Assembly (NCBI RefSeq): GCF_003952385.1
Contig: NZ_CP034444.1
Coordinates: 930,001-994,000, forward strand
DNA length: 64,000 nt
DNA from: Mesorhizobium sp. M1D.F.Ca.ET.043.01.1.1
GTDB taxonomy: Bacteria > Pseudomonadota > Alphaproteobacteria > Rhizobiales > Rhizobiaceae
Reading direction: 5' to 3'
A model generated the notes under the pieces. The model was not told the origin of the DNA and did not search any database. It was given only the letters and a program-made list of their open reading frames with translations. Every line of letters begins with the position of its first letter. The stretch's first letter is position 1. Of this stretch, positions 34,595 to 41,992 are shown piece after piece. The position numbers were made by a program, and so were the translations under genes.

Positions 34595-35761
34595 ATGCCG
34601 GGGGCTGACAAAACCGTGCTCATCACCGGGGCGCGCGCGCCGGTGGCGCTGCATCTGGCGCGCCTGCTCCATGGCGCCGGCCGCCGGGTGATCTTGGCCG
34701 ACGCGCCGGCGCGCCCAATCGCCGCCACGAGCAAAGCCTGCGCGCGCTACCATCGGCTGCCGCCGCCGCGCTTCGAGCCGCGGGCCTATGCCGAGGCGGT
34801 CGAAGCGCTGGTTCGGGCGGAAGGCATAGATCTCGTCATTCCAACCTGCGAGGAAGTCTTTCATCTCGCCATGGCTTGGCGTGGCCGGGCGATGCCGGCA
34901 CGATTGTTCGCCCCCGGCATCGAGCTTCTGGCGGAAGTCCACAACAAGCATGCCTTCATCCGGCTGGCCGAACGGCTTGGGCTCGCCGTGCCGGAAACAG
35001 TGCTGCTGCAATCGACCGCCGATCTTGAGGCGGTGCGCGGCCGGTCACGCGAGCTGGTGTTCAAGCCGGTCTGGTCGCGCTTCGCCAGCCATGTGCTGCT
35101 GCGTCCGACGCCGGATTTTCTCGACGCCATCGCCCCCTCGCCCGCCATGCCGTGGGTGGCGCAGCGTTTTGTCGATGGCGACGAGATCAGCGCCTATGCG
35201 GTTGCGCGCGAGGGCAGGCTCAAGGCGCTGGCGCTCTACCGCTCGCTCTACCGCGCCGGCAAGGGCGCCGGGATCTTCTTCGAACGGGTCGAAGATCAGG
35301 CAGCGCGCGAACTGGTCGAGCGCATCGTCACCGCAACTGGATGGACTGGCCAAATCTCCTTTGACCTGATGCGCGAGGAGGACGGCCGCGTGCTGCCGCT
35401 GGAGTGCAATCCGCGCGCGGTGAGCGGCCTGCATTTTTTTCGCGACACGGCGCGGTTTGCCGATGCGGTGCTCGGTGACGGGCCGGAAGTGATCCCCGAC
35501 GTCATCGCGCCGCAAACGGTGCGGCTTGCGATGTGGATCTACGGACTGCCGGCAGCGTTGCGTTCTGGTGGCCTCGGCGGCTTTCGGAAGGCCATGCGCG
35601 ATGGCCAGGAATTGCTCGACTGGCCGGGCGACCCTGCACCTGTGAAGGCGCAGTGGCCGGCCTTGGCCGAGATCGCCGGAGTGGCCTGGCGCCAAGGGAT
35701 CAGCCTGCAGGCGGCGGCCACCCGGGATATCGAGTGGAACGGGCCGAGCGACCGTTCTTGA
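34595..35761 (+). CDS. ATP-grasp ligase of unknown substrate
   Basis: The 388-residue protein has a Rossmann-like preATP domain (VLITGARAPVALHLARLLHG). The ATP-grasp fold follows: HNKHAFIRLAERLGLAVPE, ELVFKPVWSR (ATP lysine) and the metal-binding end VLPLECNPRAVSGLHFF. It resembles carbamoyl-phosphate-synthase-like or dipeptide-ligase ATP-grasp proteins of biosynthetic clusters. ATG 34595 has only a weak ribosome site. It is convergent with the Rieske gene, 29 bases between stops. It could activate a carboxylate for the adjacent six-gene operon; this is inference. Confidence 0.8.
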   Translation: MPGADKTVLITGARAPVALHLARLLHGAGRRVILADAPARPIAATSKACARYHRLPPPRFEPRAYAEAVEALVRAEGIDLVIPTCEEVFHLAMAWRGRAMPARLFAPGIELLAEVHNKHAFIRLAERLGLAVPETVLLQSTADLEAVRGRSRELVFKPVWSRFASHVLLRPTPDFLDAIAPSPAMPWVAQRFVDGDEISAYAVAREGRLKALALYRSLYRAGKGAGIFFERVEDQAARELVERIVTATGWTGQISFDLMREEDGRVLPLECNPRAVSGLHFFRDTARFADAVLGDGPEVIPDVIAPQTVRLAMWIYGLPAALRSGGLGGFRKAMRDGQELLDWPGDPAPVKAQWPALAEIAGVAWRQGISLQAAATRDIEWNGPSDRS

Positions 35762-35790: not shown

Positions 35791-36792
35791 TCACAATTCG
35801 ATCTGATGCACCCTTGGCTCACTCGCCGCCACCGGCATCTTCCCTTCCATGATCGCCGTAATATCCCGGCGCAGGAAATCGAGCGGGCCGATCACCGGCA
35901 GTGCCCGGGGCGCGAAACGGGCGTTGTCGCTTGCGGACTTCAGCACGCGGCGATCCTGGTGCAGCGCGATGGTGAAGAGCGGCTTGAAGGCGAGCGCCTT
36001 CAACTCACCGAGCAGGCCCTGGCGGCGGCCGATCAGCCAGCCGACGCCCTCGACGGTGCGGTCGTCGGCCTGCCGCAGGTGGAAGGTGGTGGCGAGCACC
36101 AGCCCGTCCTTGCCCCAATATTCGAGCTCGGCGATGCCGGGATGGCGGAAGCGGCCGATGGTTTTCGCGCGCTCGCCTTCCAGCAGCCGGCTGATCAGGC
36201 CTTGCTGGCGATCCTCGCCGGTGTAGCGGGCTTCGACCCAGCCTTCGCCGCCGGTCACCTCGACCTGCACCAGATGCCGCTTCGAGGTCAGGCCGCGCAG
36301 CAGGCCCTTGTGCGTGAAATGGGTGTGGGTGGCGTCGAGAATGTTTTCTGCGACATCGATGACGGTCGACTGCGTCGATGAGCGCAGCCGCCGCGCGATG
36401 ATGTCCTTGCCTTGCATGCAGTGGAGATAGGGTTCGCCCTGCGGCGTGCCGGAAGAGACGAAGACGACGTCGTCGCGTTCGATCGCGGCGTAGCGGCGCA
36501 CGCGGTAATGCGGCATGGTGCCGACATGGCCGGGAATGGCGGTGCAGCGGCCTTCGCCGTCATAGCGCCAGCCGTGGTAGGGACATTCGATCTCGCCGCC
36601 GACGACCTTGCCGATCGAGAGCTCCACCAGCCGGTGCGGGCAGCGGTCGAACAGCGCGGCAATGCCCTGCGCGGAGCGGAAAAGCACCAACGGTGAGCCA
36701 TCGAGAAGGACGCGCTTCGGCCGCTTTGCTATATCGGCCGACAGCGCCACCGCCTGCCAGTGATCCTTCGCATGATCCCGGCGCTCGCTCAC
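35791..36792 (-). CDS. Rieske non-heme iron oxygenase, alpha-subunit-like
   Basis: A 333-residue oxygenase, last gene of the operon. The Rieske centre is C51-x-H53 (CPHR) and C70-x2-H73 (CPYHGW). The mononuclear iron site is N150, D153, H156, H161 in [15 protein letters not shown]. Both centres are intact. It uses reduced ferredoxin/reductase from elsewhere, as none is encoded here. It overlaps the GNAT-like gene by four bases. Family members hydroxylate or demethylate aromatic or isoprenoid substrates; the substrate here is probably the product of the upstream enzymes. Confidence 0.9.
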
Positions 36793-37934
36793 AATTCGAA
36801 CCTCCTGAGCAGAGGAATGCCTACCAGCGCCAGCACGCTCTCCATGATGCGGATCGCCAGGCGCCGGCGGCGCGGAAGGTGATCGGCATAGACGGCGATG
36901 TACTCGATCGCCGCAACCGCGCCGCGCAGGCGCTTGAAGCCCGCCGCGCCGGCGCTCATGTTGAAGAACAGGCCGCGCGCCGTCGCATGGTCCTGCCCCA
37001 TCGCCATCACCATGCGGTAGAGCCCCTCGCCGAGCGGCAGGCGGGTATCATAGCCGACGATCGGCTGGGTGAGCGTGGCGCCATTCTCGAACAGGCCGGT
37101 GACCGCGACGAGTTCGCCGCCCGGCCGGCGCAGACCGGCAAGGCTGATGACGCCGCGCCGGTGCATCTCGGCGATGTAGCGGGCTGTGTAGCGCGGATTG
37201 AGCGGCGTGTATTTTTCCAGATAGAGCATGTTGTAGAGCTGCTCGGCGCGCGCATAGTCGGCCCCACTGAAGTCGGCGTCACCAACCCGCACGAAATGCG
37301 TGGTGCCGAGCTGCTTGCGGTCGCGCTTCAGGTTCTTTGTCATGACAGGTGCTGCGCTGCGGTCGGCGAAGATGTAGACCTGCCGCGCCGCCAGCATGCG
37401 GAAGCCTTCGGCCTTCAGGGCCGCGATGCTCGCAGGATCGGCGATCTCGTTCAACGAGCGAATGACGATGGCACGGTCGGGGAAGCGCGCGACCAGCGCC
37501 GAGCGAAGCGCCGCGATTGTCCGCCGATCGAGCAGCGGCACCGGATTGGTGGAATAGAGCCAGTTGTTGACCTGCACCTGATGGTCGAGGCCGCTTGCCC
37601 TCACCAGCGGCGCGCAGGCGCCGATGAGGGCCCGGAGCGCGCGCCGCAGCAGCGGGTGGGCGGCGAAGTTGCGCGTCTCGTCTATCGCATAGTCGATATA
37701 GGCGCTGGAGGGGCAGCAGATGTAGCAGTTCGGCGCCTCGCCGGCGTCGTTGAGCGTCAGCGGAAAGCTCCGGCCCGCGACCTCGAGGGTTTCGACTTTG
37801 GTCGTCAGATTTGCGACGAGGTCGTTTACCGGCACCTCGTTGAACAACCGGACGAAAGCCTCGACGTTGGCCGGGATGTTTTCGACGCGGTCGGCCTGTT
37901 GGACCGGCATTTCCGTGGCGATCGCCCGGCTCAC
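36789..37934 (-). CDS. GNAT-fold acyltransferase-like protein
   Basis: A 381-residue protein. The N-terminal half is poorly recognised ([21 protein letters not shown]). The C-terminal half resembles GNAT/FemAB-like N-acyltransferases ([21 protein letters not shown], then [25 protein letters not shown]). It overlaps its neighbours by four bases on each side. The acyl donor could be ACP- or CoA-bound material from the KAS III. No catalytic residue can be assigned with certainty. Confidence 0.72.
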
Positions 37935-39187
37935 GGAGCCCGCTCCGGCCGGCGTTCGACGCGGCGCAGCTTGCGGCTCGTCTCCAGCGGCAGCGGCGCG
38001 CGAATGAGAGTGACGGCCGCGGTTGCCTTTCGTGCTTCAAAAAGCGCGCGCACCGCCTGATGTGCGGAGGCGGCAGCTTCGTCGGCGAGCGCCGGAAGCA
38101 GTCTCAGCTCGATCGCATCGGGCGCGGTCTGCACGAGCCGAAAATCGTCGATGCGGCGGTCGGCCTTGAGCACGGCGTTGCGCAGCACATCCGGCGTGAC
38201 GAGGATCGGACCGCATGGCGAATCCAGCCGGAAGACATCGTCCATGCGGCCGATGATCTCGTCGACGCAGCGCAGCGGCGAGCCGCAGCGGCAGGGCCGC
38301 TCCGAAAGCCGCAGCAGGTCATTCATCCGGTAGCGCGCCATGATCTGCGTGCGGCGGCGGAAAGCAGTGACCAAAGGCGTCACCAAACTATCGCCGGCCG
38401 GCTCGAATTCGAAGAAGACCGAGTCTTCGGCAAGATGCAGGCTGCCGTGCCGGCAGGTCACGGCAAACAGCCCTTCGGTCGCCATGTAGATCTGGTCGAG
38501 CGGCAGCCGGAAGAAATCTTCGATAACCGGACGGTCGACCGGATCGAGCGTCTCGGCGGCCGAGAAGATGCGTTTCGGCTGGAGGCGGAAGCCTTGGGCG
38601 GCGAAATGCCTCAGCACTTTCGGCGGCGCGATGATCACAGTCGCATCGAAGGTTTCCAGCGCCCTGCGCCAGCGTTCCGGTCCGAGCGTCAGGTCGAAGA
38701 AGGCAAGCTTGATCAGCCGCGACCTGCGGGCGCTGTCGTAGAGGCCGGTGTTCTGCGGCAGGATGACGGCGACACGCATGCCGCGCCACAGAAGATCGGC
38801 CGCCGCCTTAGCGAGGATCGTGCCCAGCCAGCGGTATTTCTCCGCCTCCGAAATCACGAACAGGCCGCGATTGCCCGATGTGCCGGTGCTTGCGCCGACA
38901 GTGAGCGAACCGACGCGCCCATCGCGGGTCAAAGTCGCCCAGGCTTCGGCCGTGGTGATGCCGTGGATGTTGAAATCCTCGAAGCGTGCCATCAGCAGCG
39001 CCTTGTCGGTCACCGGCAGGTCGGTGAGACGCGCCGGCGCGTGGCGATAAAAAGGCGCGAGCGGCAGGTCGCGGTCGAGGAAACGGCGCAAGGCGGCCGC
39101 CTGCCAGCGCTCGAAGTCGGCGCGGCTCTTGCGCGAGACCCAGCTCGTCAGGGCGAAAGAGCCGATCGCTTCCGCCAAAGCGTTCAT
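37931..39187 (-). CDS. adenylate-forming enzyme, F390-synthetase/PaaK-like
   Basis: A 418-residue ANL-superfamily ligase of the PaaK/F390 branch. The phosphate-binding loop is [13 protein letters not shown] (residues about 98-110). MATEG is the A5-like motif, [10 protein letters not shown] supplies the ribose-binding Asp, and GRMDDVFRL is the hinge. A possible catalytic lysine is in [10 protein letters not shown] near the end. A CRCGSPL cysteine pair is present, as in F390-type enzymes. It would activate a carboxylate as an adenylate, and perhaps transfer it to the GNAT-like partner or form a lactone. Starts ATGA-overlapping the MBL stop. Confidence 0.85.
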
Positions 39188-40017
39188 GCGGCCTCCGGAT
39201 CACTCAGTGCCAGATCGTAGGCCGTCGGCACCGGATCATGGCAGAGAACCACCTCGCCGCCAGCGGCCATGAAACGCCGCAACATAGCGCTGGTCGGCTC
39301 GATTGCCACGGCATCCTCGGCGATCAGCGTGGCCGGGAAGCCGGGCGTGCGGCTTTCGGTCAAGGCTTGAAGCAGCCATTGCACGTCGACGGCATAGAAA
39401 AGCGGCCGATCGAGGCCGGCAAACAGCAGGCCGAACTGCCCATCGGCATGTCCAGGAAGATCGACCGCGATCACGCTGCCGTCGCCGAAGAGATCGCCGC
39501 CGCCGGGCACGCCATCGTTCGCTTTGACACGCGGCTTGGAGGACAGACCGTCCAAACGCGTCTCGAAATCCGCCGGAAAGAGCTCGGTGAAGATGCCGTG
39601 GCGCAAATTCCGGCGCGGTGTTCGCGCCTTGACCCGCGTCCAGGCGGCATCGCTGGCGATGAAGCGCGCCTTTGGAAACAGCGACAGGCCGGAAATGTGG
39701 TCGGCATGGAAATGGGTGACGATGACGGTGCCTATGTCATCCGGCGAAAGGCCGAAATACTTCAGCACCGGCAAGACCTGTCCCGCGGCGTTGAGCTCGG
39801 GTTTCAGCAACGCGCCATAGAGGCGCAGCATCCGGCCCCGTCGCTCTCCCGAAAGCGCTTCTTGCGTATAGCCGGTATCGACCAGCACCGCTCCGGCGAG
39901 GGGATGCAAGATCAGCCCGTAACGCACGCGCAGCCGCACGCTTTGCCAGCTGCCGCCGCGCAGGATGAGCCGTTCGGCGGCGTTGACCCAGGCGCTGTTG
40001 GCGAAGACGATCTTCAT
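39184..40017 (-). CDS. metallo-beta-lactamase-fold hydrolase
   Basis: The 277-residue MBL-fold enzyme has the metal motif THFHADHISG (H102, H104, D106, H107), a DLPGHADGQ segment with the next His, and DVQW for the bridging Asp. The layout resembles AHL-lactonase or thioesterase-like members. In the operon it may release or edit a thioester or lactone intermediate, the place taken by the alpha/beta-hydrolase OleB in olefin pathways. The start overlaps the upstream SDR stop by four bases. Confidence 0.85.
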   Translation of the reverse strand: MKIVFANSAWVNAAERLILRGGSWQSVRLRVRYGLILHPLAGAVLVDTGYTQEALSGERRGRMLRLYGALLKPELNAAGQVLPVLKYFGLSPDDIGTVIVTHFHADHISGLSLFPKARFIASDAAWTRVKARTPRRNLRHGIFTELFPADFETRLDGLSSKPRVKANDGVPGGGDLFGDGSVIAVDLPGHADGQFGLLFAGLDRPLFYAVDVQWLLQALTESRTPGFPATLIAEDAVAIEPTSAMLRRFMAAGGEVVLCHDPVPTAYDLALSDPEAA

Positions 40018-40997
40018 AGCCTGGCCCTGCTGAAGAAGGTGCGGTCGAGCCCCTCTTCGAGAGCGATCTTCGGCGTCCAGCCGAGCATGCGTCTTGCCTT
40101 GGAGAGATCCAGGCTCTGGGCGTAGGCGAAGAGGCCGAGTCCATAGCGGGTGACCGGCGGCTCCGGGCTGCCGGGCAGCCTGAGCGCCACCGCTTCCATC
40201 AGACCCGCCGCAAGCATTGCCGGCTGCAGCGGCATCGGCCGCCAGCGCGCCTCAAGGCCGGCGCGGGCGCAGGCCTCATCGGCGATGCGGCGCACCGGCA
40301 GCACCTCGCCGCCGGAGATGTTGAAGATCTGGCCTTCGGCCTCTTTGGGTGCCGCAAGCGCCGCCATGATGGCATCGACGACATCGTCGACATGGGTGAG
40401 ATCGATCGCGGCCCGACCGCCGCGGAAGAGTGGCAGCGACCGGCTCTTCGCCGCCTTGATCAGGCGCGGCAGCAGCGCGCGATCGCCGGTGCCGTAAATG
40501 CCGCGCGGCCTAAGCACCACCGGATGGATTTCGGCGGCGCTGAGCACGATCCGCTCCGCCTCGCGCTTGGTGCGGGCATAGTGGTTGACCGGGTCAGGCA
40601 AGGCCACGTCCTCAGTCAGGCCGAGCTGGTCGCGAAAGGCAAAGCAGACGGATGGGCTGGAGATGTGGACGAAGCGGCTGACGCCCTGCTGGATCGCGAA
40701 ATCGCGGAGGTTCCGCGTCGTCGAGACGTTTGCCATCTCGAAATCCTGCGGACGGCCGAACGGCGCGGAAAGCGCGGCGCAATGGATGACCCGCTCGACC
40801 CTGCCCAGTCTCGGATCGAGCGCTCCGTCGAGCGGCTGAGAAAGATCATGGCGGATGATGCGATGACCGGCGGCTTCCAGCGCGGCGCAACGGGCCGCGT
40901 CGCGGCCAAGGCCGAGCGCCAGCGTGCCCGTCGCCGCCAGCCGCTCGAGCACATGGGAACCGAGGAAGCCGCTGGCGCCGGTGACGAGGACAGCCAT
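40014..40997 (-). CDS. extended-SDR NAD(P)-dependent reductase/epimerase
   Basis: A 327-residue extended SDR with VTGASGFLGSHVLERL (cofactor motif), ISSPSVCF and the catalytic Tyr/Lys in HYARTKREAERIVL. The 3-beta-HSD-like signature LRPRGIYGTGDRALLPRLI and a C-terminal MLGWTPKIALEEGL follow. It resembles OleD-type ketoreductases of head-to-head condensation pathways as much as sugar epimerases. It begins two bases after the KAS III stop. Likely acts on the beta-keto product of the condensing enzyme. Confidence 0.87.
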   Translation of the reverse strand: MAVLVTGASGFLGSHVLERLAATGTLALGLGRDAARCAALEAAGHRIIRHDLSQPLDGALDPRLGRVERVIHCAALSAPFGRPQDFEMANVSTTRNLRDFAIQQGVSRFVHISSPSVCFAFRDQLGLTEDVALPDPVNHYARTKREAERIVLSAAEIHPVVLRPRGIYGTGDRALLPRLIKAAKSRSLPLFRGGRAAIDLTHVDDVVDAIMAALAAPKEAEGQIFNISGGEVLPVRRIADEACARAGLEARWRPMPLQPAMLAAGLMEAVALRLPGSPEPPVTRYGLGLFAYAQSLDLSKARRMLGWTPKIALEEGLDRTFFSRARL

Positions 40998-40999
40998 CG

Positions 41000-41992
41000 T
41001 CAGGCTTCCAACGCCATGCCGCCGAACGAGACGCCGGCCGAGGTGCCGAGGACGAGCAGCTTCATGCCCGGTGCCACACGGCCCTCGCGGCGCGCGATAT
41101 CGAGGGCGAAGGGAATGGAGGCGGCGATCTGGTTGCCGAAGCGGGCGGCAATGTCGACCAGCTTTTCCGGCGCGAAGCCGGTCTGGCGCGCCATGTGCGC
41201 AAGTGCCAACGGGCTTGCCTGATGCGGCACGACGAGGTCGATATCCTCATGCCGCCAGCCGGCACGCTCCAGCAGGTCTCCGACAAAGCTGCTGAAATGG
41301 CGCGACGTCAGGCGGAACAGTTCCTTGCCGTCCATGTGGAAAAGGCTGTGCTCGGCGAACTCTTCCGGCTGACGATGGAAATCGAAGCGCGTGCCGCCGG
41401 CGCCGATGCCGCAGGCTTCCCAGCCGGATGGATAAGTGCGCATCAGGCTCGCCGCCACCCTGCTGCCCTCGCCGGCCCCCGCCCTGCGCAGCACGGCCGC
41501 CGCCGCGCCGTCGCCGAAGAGTGCCGCGACCTCCGGCGCTTCCCGCCACGGCAGTGCGCGCGAAGCCACTTCGGCGGAGAAGACCAATGCCGTCTCGCAT
41601 TGCCCGGCGTCGATCGTGCGGCCTGCCGTCTCGAAGGCGGTGAGGAAGCCAAGGCAGGTGCTATTGACGTCGAAGGCGGCGGCCGAACCGTCGGCGAGGC
41701 CGAGACGCCGCATGACCAAAGGCGCGGTGGCCGGCAGCGGCTGGTAAGGCACGCCGCAGCCGCCGATGATCAGATCGACGGCCTCGGCTTCGAGCCCGGC
41801 ATCTTCAAGCGCGACCCGCGCGGCAGCGCAGGCGAGATCGATCTGCGATTCGGCCTCGCAGACGTAACGCTCGACCACACCGGTGGCGGCTTCGAGCGCA
41901 CCCCGGCCGAGGCCCAGCCTCTCCTCCAGGGCGCGCGTGGTGATGCACTCTGCCGGCACCGCCCGGCCGGTTCCGACGATCCTGATCCGCAT
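41000..41992 (-). CDS. beta-ketoacyl-ACP synthase III-like condensing enzyme
   Basis: A 330-residue thiolase-fold condensing enzyme, first gene of the operon. The triad is Cys113 (DVNSTCLGFL), His257 (VPHQASPLALA) and Asn287 (RFGNQIAASIP). GDGAAAAVL and the GTSAGVSFGGM end are also present. Chain-initiating or head-to-head condensation is expected. The housekeeping FabH normally lies with plsX, not here, so this is an accessory copy. ATG 41992 has GGGGGAGG adjacent. It heads the transcript; a region with two palindromes lies upstream. Confidence 0.9.
   Translation of the reverse strand: MRIRIVGTGRAVPAECITTRALEERLGLGRGALEAATGVVERYVCEAESQIDLACAAARVALEDAGLEAEAVDLIIGGCGVPYQPLPATAPLVMRRLGLADGSAAAFDVNSTCLGFLTAFETAGRTIDAGQCETALVFSAEVASRALPWREAPEVAALFGDGAAAAVLRRAGAGEGSRVAASLMRTYPSGWEACGIGAGGTRFDFHRQPEEFAEHSLFHMDGKELFRLTSRHFSSFVGDLLERAGWRHEDIDLVVPHQASPLALAHMARQTGFAPEKLVDIAARFGNQIAASIPFALDIARREGRVAPGMKLLVLGTSAGVSFGGMALEA

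Follow-up and report, generated by a model that had tools for sequence, protein, structure and literature searches.

Gene content of the locus and its conservation in Mesorhizobium

The window analysed here, a stretch of 64,000 nucleotides from the chromosome of Mesorhizobium sp. M1D.F.Ca.ET.043.01.1.1 (contig NZ_CP034444.1, positions 930,001 to 994,000), contains a cluster of seven genes (Table 1). Six open reading frames (ORFs) on the minus strand cover the window positions 35791-41992 and encode, in this order, a β-ketoacyl-acyl carrier protein synthase III (KAS III, here KAS), an extended short-chain dehydrogenase/reductase (SDR), a hydrolase of the metallo-beta-lactamase (MBL) fold, an adenylate-forming ligase (98% identical to a protein from an unclassified Mesorhizobium), a tandem-GNAT transferase and a Rieske oxygenase. 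At four of the five junctions the genes overlap by 4 bases, and the remaining one is a 2-base gap. The first-pass annotation of this DNA had described six genes on one strand with these junctions and intact catalytic motifs, and this is confirmed by the coordinates, which are the same, by the letters of the junctions and by the invariant residues detailed below. The operon that it delimited was correct for the six genes but missed a seventh, an ATP-grasp gene of the opposite strand that converges on the operon and lies 29 bp from the Rieske stop. This gene belongs to the unit despite its convergent strand, because the ligase, the GNAT and the ATP-grasp are found in nearly the same set of Mesorhizobium genomes.

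Table 1. Genes of the cluster, with positions in the window
Gene product	Position	Strand	Family assignment
KAS III, FabH-like ketosynthase, core gene 1	41000-41992	-	PF08541/PF08545; closest NCBIfam model PRK07204
Extended SDR, core gene 2	40014-40997	-	Epimerase-type; closest NCBIfam model OleD (2-alkyl-3-oxoalkanoate reductase) NF042422
MBL-fold hydrolase, N-acylhomoserine lactonase type, core gene 3	39184-40017	-	Lactamase_B
F390-synthetase-related adenylate-forming ligase, core gene 4	37931-39187	-	TIGR02304
Tandem-GNAT transferase, predicted FemX/MprF-like fold, tailoring	36789-37934	-	Acetyltransf_6
Rieske non-haem iron oxygenase, tailoring	35791-36792	-	Rieske + VanA-type C-terminus
ATP-grasp ligase, convergent, tailoring	34595-35761	+	Closest NCBIfam model PRK06849; co-occurrence with the operon

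Among 146 Mesorhizobium genomes, the ligase was detected in 56, the GNAT in 57 and the ATP-grasp in 58. The additional carriers are G686, in which the GNAT and the ATP-grasp were detected (the assembly is 79% complete), and G668, which has a partial ATP-grasp only; two more ATP-grasp matches were flagged with one stop (G672 and G617). The loci of 32 of the 56 carriers were compared. All of them display the order KAS, SDR, MBL, ligase, GNAT, Rieske and then the facing ATP-grasp, so that the six genes do stay together in relatives. The genes of the cluster are under purifying selection, with median dN/dS values (against the window, 31 or 32 loci each) of 0.148 for KAS, 0.212 for SDR, 0.214 for MBL, 0.188 for the ligase, 0.202 for GNAT, 0.149 for Rieske and 0.158 for ATP-grasp. 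In these loci, only the ligase of L106 and the Rieske protein of L087 are not full length. The latter consists of two overlapping pieces in different frames (L087:11886-12889), reflecting either a broken gene or an assembly error.

The cluster is located near pepA in 26 of the 32 loci. No pepA was found within 20 kb in the six others (L078, L079, L087, L095, L097 and L098), where the site may therefore differ. Eight Mesorhizobium genomes that lack the complete cluster retain the arrangement lptF-pepA-holC; seven of them were picked for the lack of a ligase match and the eighth (G668) for its ATP-grasp remnant. Seven of the eight contain no convincing remnant within the 16 kb examined; two weak SDR matches in L252 (27% and 22%) were read as paralogues. 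The sole remnant in the 13 kb of G668 is a degraded ATP-grasp (L250:5252-6139), partial, 68% identical and with one stop, near holC-pepA, and it is probably the relic of a lost cluster. The unit is thus dispensable and was probably lost at the pepA site at least once.

Mobility is suggested by the six loci without a nearby pepA and by plasmid copies: ligase matches at E up to 1e-30 occur in 25 of 72,556 plasmid records, and on a plasmid of Rhizobium sp. BT03 the seven genes are all present and arranged as in the window. A recent mobile insertion at the window locus is nevertheless unlikely, since most loci share the pepA neighbourhood and the GC content of the cluster (0.670) is like that of the window (0.648). 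TetR-like regulators are annotated upstream of the cluster in Rhizobium and Paracoccus plasmids; none was seen beside the window operon.

A four-gene core with variable partners across bacteria

When one genome per species was scanned with the ligase alignment, 547 pattern matches were obtained, of which 540 proved to be relatives, and the best 80 loci, all from named hosts, were analysed. Since these 80 were selected by their similarity to a single query, the tallies below are no unbiased census; a few records stand among both the named and the unnamed loci. KAS, SDR, MBL and ligase are found together in 77 of these 80 loci, the core being incomplete in two short contigs (L131 and L140) and in a Budvicia locus without KAS (L183). 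The hosts belong to Pseudomonadota and Bacillota, together with one metagenome-assembled genome (MAG) of the Campylobacteraceae. The distance matrices of the core proteins agree with each other (Spearman 0.75-0.86 in 33 loci, a level reached by 0 of 1000 permutations). A chance association of neighbouring genes is ruled out by the conserved order, the co-presence of the core and the agreement of these matrices.

The partners of the core, as tallied by tblastn, differ between lineages. PAP2, a hydroxylase and a desaturase accompany it in 45 of the 80 loci, PAP2 and the hydroxylase in four, PAP2 alone in six, and the ATP-grasp in any combination in 10 (with GNAT in eight of them and Rieske in six), and 15 loci show none of these partners. 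Counted one by one, PAP2 is present in 56 loci, the fatty-acid hydroxylase in 50 and the fatty-acid desaturases in 45. One ATP-grasp locus also has PAP2 (L174), and the hydroxylase match counted in L184 is 2.5 kb away, past the Rieske gene. The fatty-acid hydroxylase of the Pectobacterium locus L067 is OlsE-like. L169, L179 and L173, the last without the PAP2 module, contain another SDR and a pair of glycosyltransferase-like ORFs. In L169 (Enterobacteriaceae), the only one of these that was scanned, one ORF of the pair matches the GT21 ceramide-glucosyltransferase family and the other is UGT-like; the closest NCBIfam model of the GT21 ORF is HpnI, below its cut-off. An Escherichia coli plasmid record carries a PAP2-type cluster between narGHJI and purU (L259:6140-13021).

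In other lineages the ATP-grasp gene has the same orientation as the operon (L073-L076, L107, L125, L130, L134, L138, L171, L172, L174, L175 and L184). It directly follows the ligase in the other proteobacteria L073, L074, L075 and L076, and is inserted between KAS and SDR in Metabacillus niabensis, Gracilibacillus, Pontibacillus and the Campylobacteraceae MAG. In the alphaproteobacterial MAG locus L076, an S-adenosylmethionine methyltransferase is encoded between the ATP-grasp and Rieske genes (L076:7765-8442). The close Bacillaceae loci L148 and L159 have the same core order as the Metabacillus locus L171 and lack its ATP-grasp and GNAT, as if the tailoring genes had been lost or gained. In L171 the KAS passes the model PRK07204 and the ATP-grasp passes PRK06849, and hence TIGR02304, PRK07204 and PRK06849 name parts of one cassette. 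Judged from the starts of ORFs, TetR-like regulators also precede the cluster in Metabacillus and Bacillus; together with the Rhizobium and Paracoccus plasmids mentioned above, the loci concerned are L148, L159, L171, L258 and L260. In Pectobacterium, Pfam models recognise a luxI-type synthase and a luxR-type regulator a few kb from the cluster (L067:3744-5112); luxR-like and luxI-like ORF groups were obtained from 11 and six loci, respectively, all of Pectobacterium.

Family placement and catalytic residues of the encoded proteins

The residue counts given here come from alignments in which the window is itself one of the rows and a few sequences are identical (of 117 KAS fetched, 113 are distinct); rows below 75% of the reference length were excluded (the MBL of L166 and the Rieske protein of L087). 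The KAS triad Cys113/His257/Asn287 is invariant in 118 of 118 rows. The window KAS scores 297 bits with PRK07204, against a cut-off of 402. According to the portion of the OleA study consulted (PMC7064751), OleA cannot condense two acyl-CoAs without its Glu117-Pro. The cluster column corresponding to Glu117 contains Leu in 103 rows, Ile in 13 and Met in two, and Glu-Pro is kept in five of five OleA controls, which are KAS III genes located beside genes that match the OleD model (three of these matches exceed the OleD cut-off and two fall short of it). In the tree, 36 cluster KAS rows and the five OleA rows are separated, each with a support of 100/100. The cluster KAS form their own clade on the FabH side of the tree, far from the five OleA controls, whose branches were flagged as long by the program.

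The SDR residues Tyr140 and Lys144 are invariant (120/120 rows). The first-pass annotation had given the operon an Ole-like logic, which for this protein is supported in that its best NCBIfam model is the OleD model NF042422, yet the score of 172.5 bits, like the 128.7 bits obtained with NF042423, is well below the cut-off of 580 bits. OleD is also the best SDR model in Metabacillus, and the related NF042423 is the best in the Pectobacterium locus L067. In L074 the SDR is read as two ORFs of 94 and 238 amino acids (L074:7981-8990), owing to a frameshift or a sequencing error.

The OleA part of the logic proposed earlier for the operon is not supported. On a route of the Ole kind, two acyl chains would be condensed head-to-head, an OleD-type reduction would follow, the ligase would close a beta-lactone and the MBL would act on this lactone. 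The gene-by-gene resemblance, the closeness of the SDR to the OleD models and the compatibility of a ligase and a lactonase-type MBL with lactone chemistry are consistent with such a route. It is quite unlikely, however, as Glu117 is replaced in every KAS row and the clade is remote from OleA, and as an MBL in the place of OleB would only re-open the beta-lactone, which would be futile. OleC is an ordinary AMP-binding enzyme (PF00501). The window ligase passes TIGR02304, and no Pfam model matched it at E 0.001. Membership in OleABCD was accordingly rejected for the KAS (tree and Glu117) and for the ligase (TIGR02304, no Pfam match); as judged from sequence, the analogy holds for the reductase only.

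By both sequence and fold, the MBL is closest to N-acylhomoserine lactonases. Its seven metal-ligand positions (HxHxDH-H-D-H: H102, H104, D106, H107, H190, D211 and H260) are matched and invariant in 119/119 rows, and its scores are below the cut-offs of the NCBIfam lactonase models that it matched. Trp214 is likewise invariant in 119/119 rows; paired by an Asp+3 spacing only, it would stand at the position of Tyr194, the catalytic residue of AiiA. The kinship with acylhomoserine lactonases and the luxI/luxR-type genes near the Pectobacterium cluster would suit a degradation or signal-quenching unit, in which the MBL opens an acylhomoserine or other lactone and the remaining genes salvage the acyl chain. 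This explanation is very improbable: KAS III enzymes act in biosynthesis, the presumed counterpart of the catalytic Tyr of AiiA is Trp throughout, and the luxR-like and luxI-like groups are limited to Pectobacterium.

With 262.2 bits, the ligase exceeds the TIGR02304 cut-off of 251.9, which upholds its earlier assignment to the PaaK/F390 type. Its loop is intact, and Ser100, Gly102, Glu238, Asp290 and Lys406 are invariant (121/121 rows). Matches to TIGR02304 below the cut-off are common and were left out of the analysis: at E 0.001 the model finds a match in 48 of 199 genomes in this order, against three of 199 over the cut-off. Among solved structures, the ligase comes closest to PaaK-like enzymes, which use aromatic acids, and the relatives of the KAS in the PDB include a 'PQS biosynthetic enzyme' and entries for PqsC, all ranking well behind the FabH-type ones. 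These relatives recall alkylquinolone synthesis, where PqsA, PqsD and PqsE act in a comparable way: the ligase would charge an aromatic acid, the KAS would extend it with malonyl, the SDR would reduce it and the MBL would serve as thioesterase. We regard an aromatic route of this kind as unlikely, given that the companion modules are lipid enzymes, that the ligase is only weakly similar to the PaaK enzymes of solved structure (E 1e-7) and that the ORF lists, judged by first residues and without a dedicated search, showed no gene for the supply of an aromatic acid. In the section seen of a transposon study on Pseudomonas syringae pv. actinidiae (PMC9823363), an insertion in a 'Coenzyme F390 synthetase' has a virulence score of 2, the score being the number of infected seedlings out of six and mutants below four being kept; this is a hint only if the protein is of the same family as the window ligase. 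For a strain of P. aeruginosa, as far as the extract of PMC5467263 goes, a 'Coenzyme F390 synthetase' is listed with no further detail.

The label 'acyltransferase' given earlier to the GNAT protein is right as to the GNAT family but overlooked the tandem fold of FemX/MprF type. The structural model suggests two GNAT domains over most of the chain, with Sbb17, FemX and MprF as the best whole-length matches. The residues Phe333-Lys334 are invariant in 41/41 rows, eight of which are from outside Mesorhizobium; pairs of the same two residues are given as Phe304/Lys305 for FemX and Phe328/Lys329 for DhpH-C in the passages seen of PMC4964394 and PMC12945691, respectively. A search of five genomes with the Pfam FemAB model gave no match. 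In the Rieske protein, the ligands C51/H53/C70/H73 of the CxH..CxxH cluster are invariant in 42/42 rows, as are N150/D153/H156/H161 and D280 in the region of the 2-His-1-Asp iron site, where we assign Asp280 as the putative third iron ligand. The window ATP-grasp scores 327 bits with PRK06849 (cut-off 406).

Proposed route and comparison with known systems

The gene content, linkage, catalytic residues, purifying selection and placement by family and fold are results of the analysis; the substrates, the order of steps, the class of product and the donor used by the GNAT are inferred. Our preferred reading, which is tentative and may well prove wrong, is that the cassette combines a conserved four-enzyme core with lineage-specific tailoring and makes a fatty-acid-derived scaffold. 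The order KAS-SDR-MBL-ligase may be read as the order of reactions: condense, reduce, hydrolyse, activate. The FabH-like KAS would join an acyl starter and a malonyl unit by decarboxylative condensation, the OleD-like SDR would convert the beta-ketone into a beta-hydroxy group, the lactonase-type MBL would release a free acid from the thioester (or from a lactone), and the TIGR02304 ligase would adenylate this acid. Since a FabH-like KAS leaves a thioester and adenylation needs prior hydrolysis, the MBL gains a role that is absent from the Ole analogy. In Mesorhizobium, the ATP-grasp would then couple the activated acid to an amine, the tandem GNAT would add an aminoacyl or acyl group, and the Rieske enzyme would hydroxylate the molecule, giving a hydroxylated aminolipid-like product. 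The core product is read as a lipid because the partner enzymes of the other module are of lipid type. A more precise version is on the doubtful side: one lipid core shared across phyla would make a beta-hydroxy acyl scaffold, which Enterobacterales, Pseudomonas and Burkholderia would turn into a glycolipid or a modified membrane lipid, and Mesorhizobium into a hydroxylated lipid with an amino-acid cap loaded by a FemX-like, aminoacyl-tRNA-dependent step.

Several points weigh against the lipid scaffold. The argument for a lipid is drawn mainly from the module found outside Mesorhizobium, and neither an acyl carrier protein (ACP) nor a transporter was seen in the operon. The Mesorhizobium ligase is only 38% identical to that of an alphaproteobacterial MAG and 33-38% to those of L067-L070; this distance of the Mesorhizobium core from the rest means that its substrate may differ. 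The ATP-grasp (14 loci) and the GNAT (10 loci) track the core less closely (rho 0.29-0.67, at most 35 of 1000 permutations as high). If the MBL is a true lactonase, there could be a lactone intermediate, and the starter could be aromatic, because PaaK-type ligases often take aromatic acids. For the GNAT, Phe333/Lys334 were matched to FemX by end offsets only (model 364 to FemX 335 in 1ne9), and, with E up to 1, Pfam FemAB (PF02388) matched none of 13 GNAT members. An aminoacyl-tRNA donor is not established by the Phe-Lys pair, which may be shared by the wider PF13480 group.

No paper on the cluster or its product was found in the literature searched, which left subscription papers and preprints mostly outside; the earlier statement that no product is known holds within it. 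The interest lies more in a cross-phylum core without a described product in that literature than in this operon alone. If the scaffold reading is true, the placeholder-named families TIGR02304, PRK07204 and PRK06849 would form one pathway, whose hosts range from relatives of Bacillus to Serratia, Pseudomonas, Burkholderia and rhizobia and which would yield a membrane lipid or a signal overlooked by surveys.

The descriptions of these three models name no pathway; of the window proteins, the ligase passes its model and the KAS and ATP-grasp remain below theirs. With OleABCD, the window unit shares a KAS III-type enzyme, an OleD-like extended SDR, an adenylating enzyme, a hydrolase and an operon in which neither ACP nor transporter is seen. 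It differs by a KAS without Glu117 placed beside FabH, by a TIGR02304 ligase, by an MBL fold in place of OleB and by the addition of the ATP-grasp, the tandem GNAT and the Rieske enzyme. The window GNAT resembles the aminoacyl transferases FemABX, DhpH-C and MprF in its predicted tandem fold over most of the protein and in a Phe-Lys pair that may be equivalent to theirs, but lacks a match to Pfam FemAB. The MBL has the fold and the seven metal-ligand positions of the lactonases AiiA, AttM and AhlX, whereas it carries an invariant Trp at the presumed position of AiiA Tyr194 and scores below the lactonase-model cut-offs. Finally, the Pqs alkylquinolone pathway also unites a ligase, a KAS III and an MBL hydrolase; these belong to other subfamilies, and the cassette adds an SDR and partner modules of lipid type.

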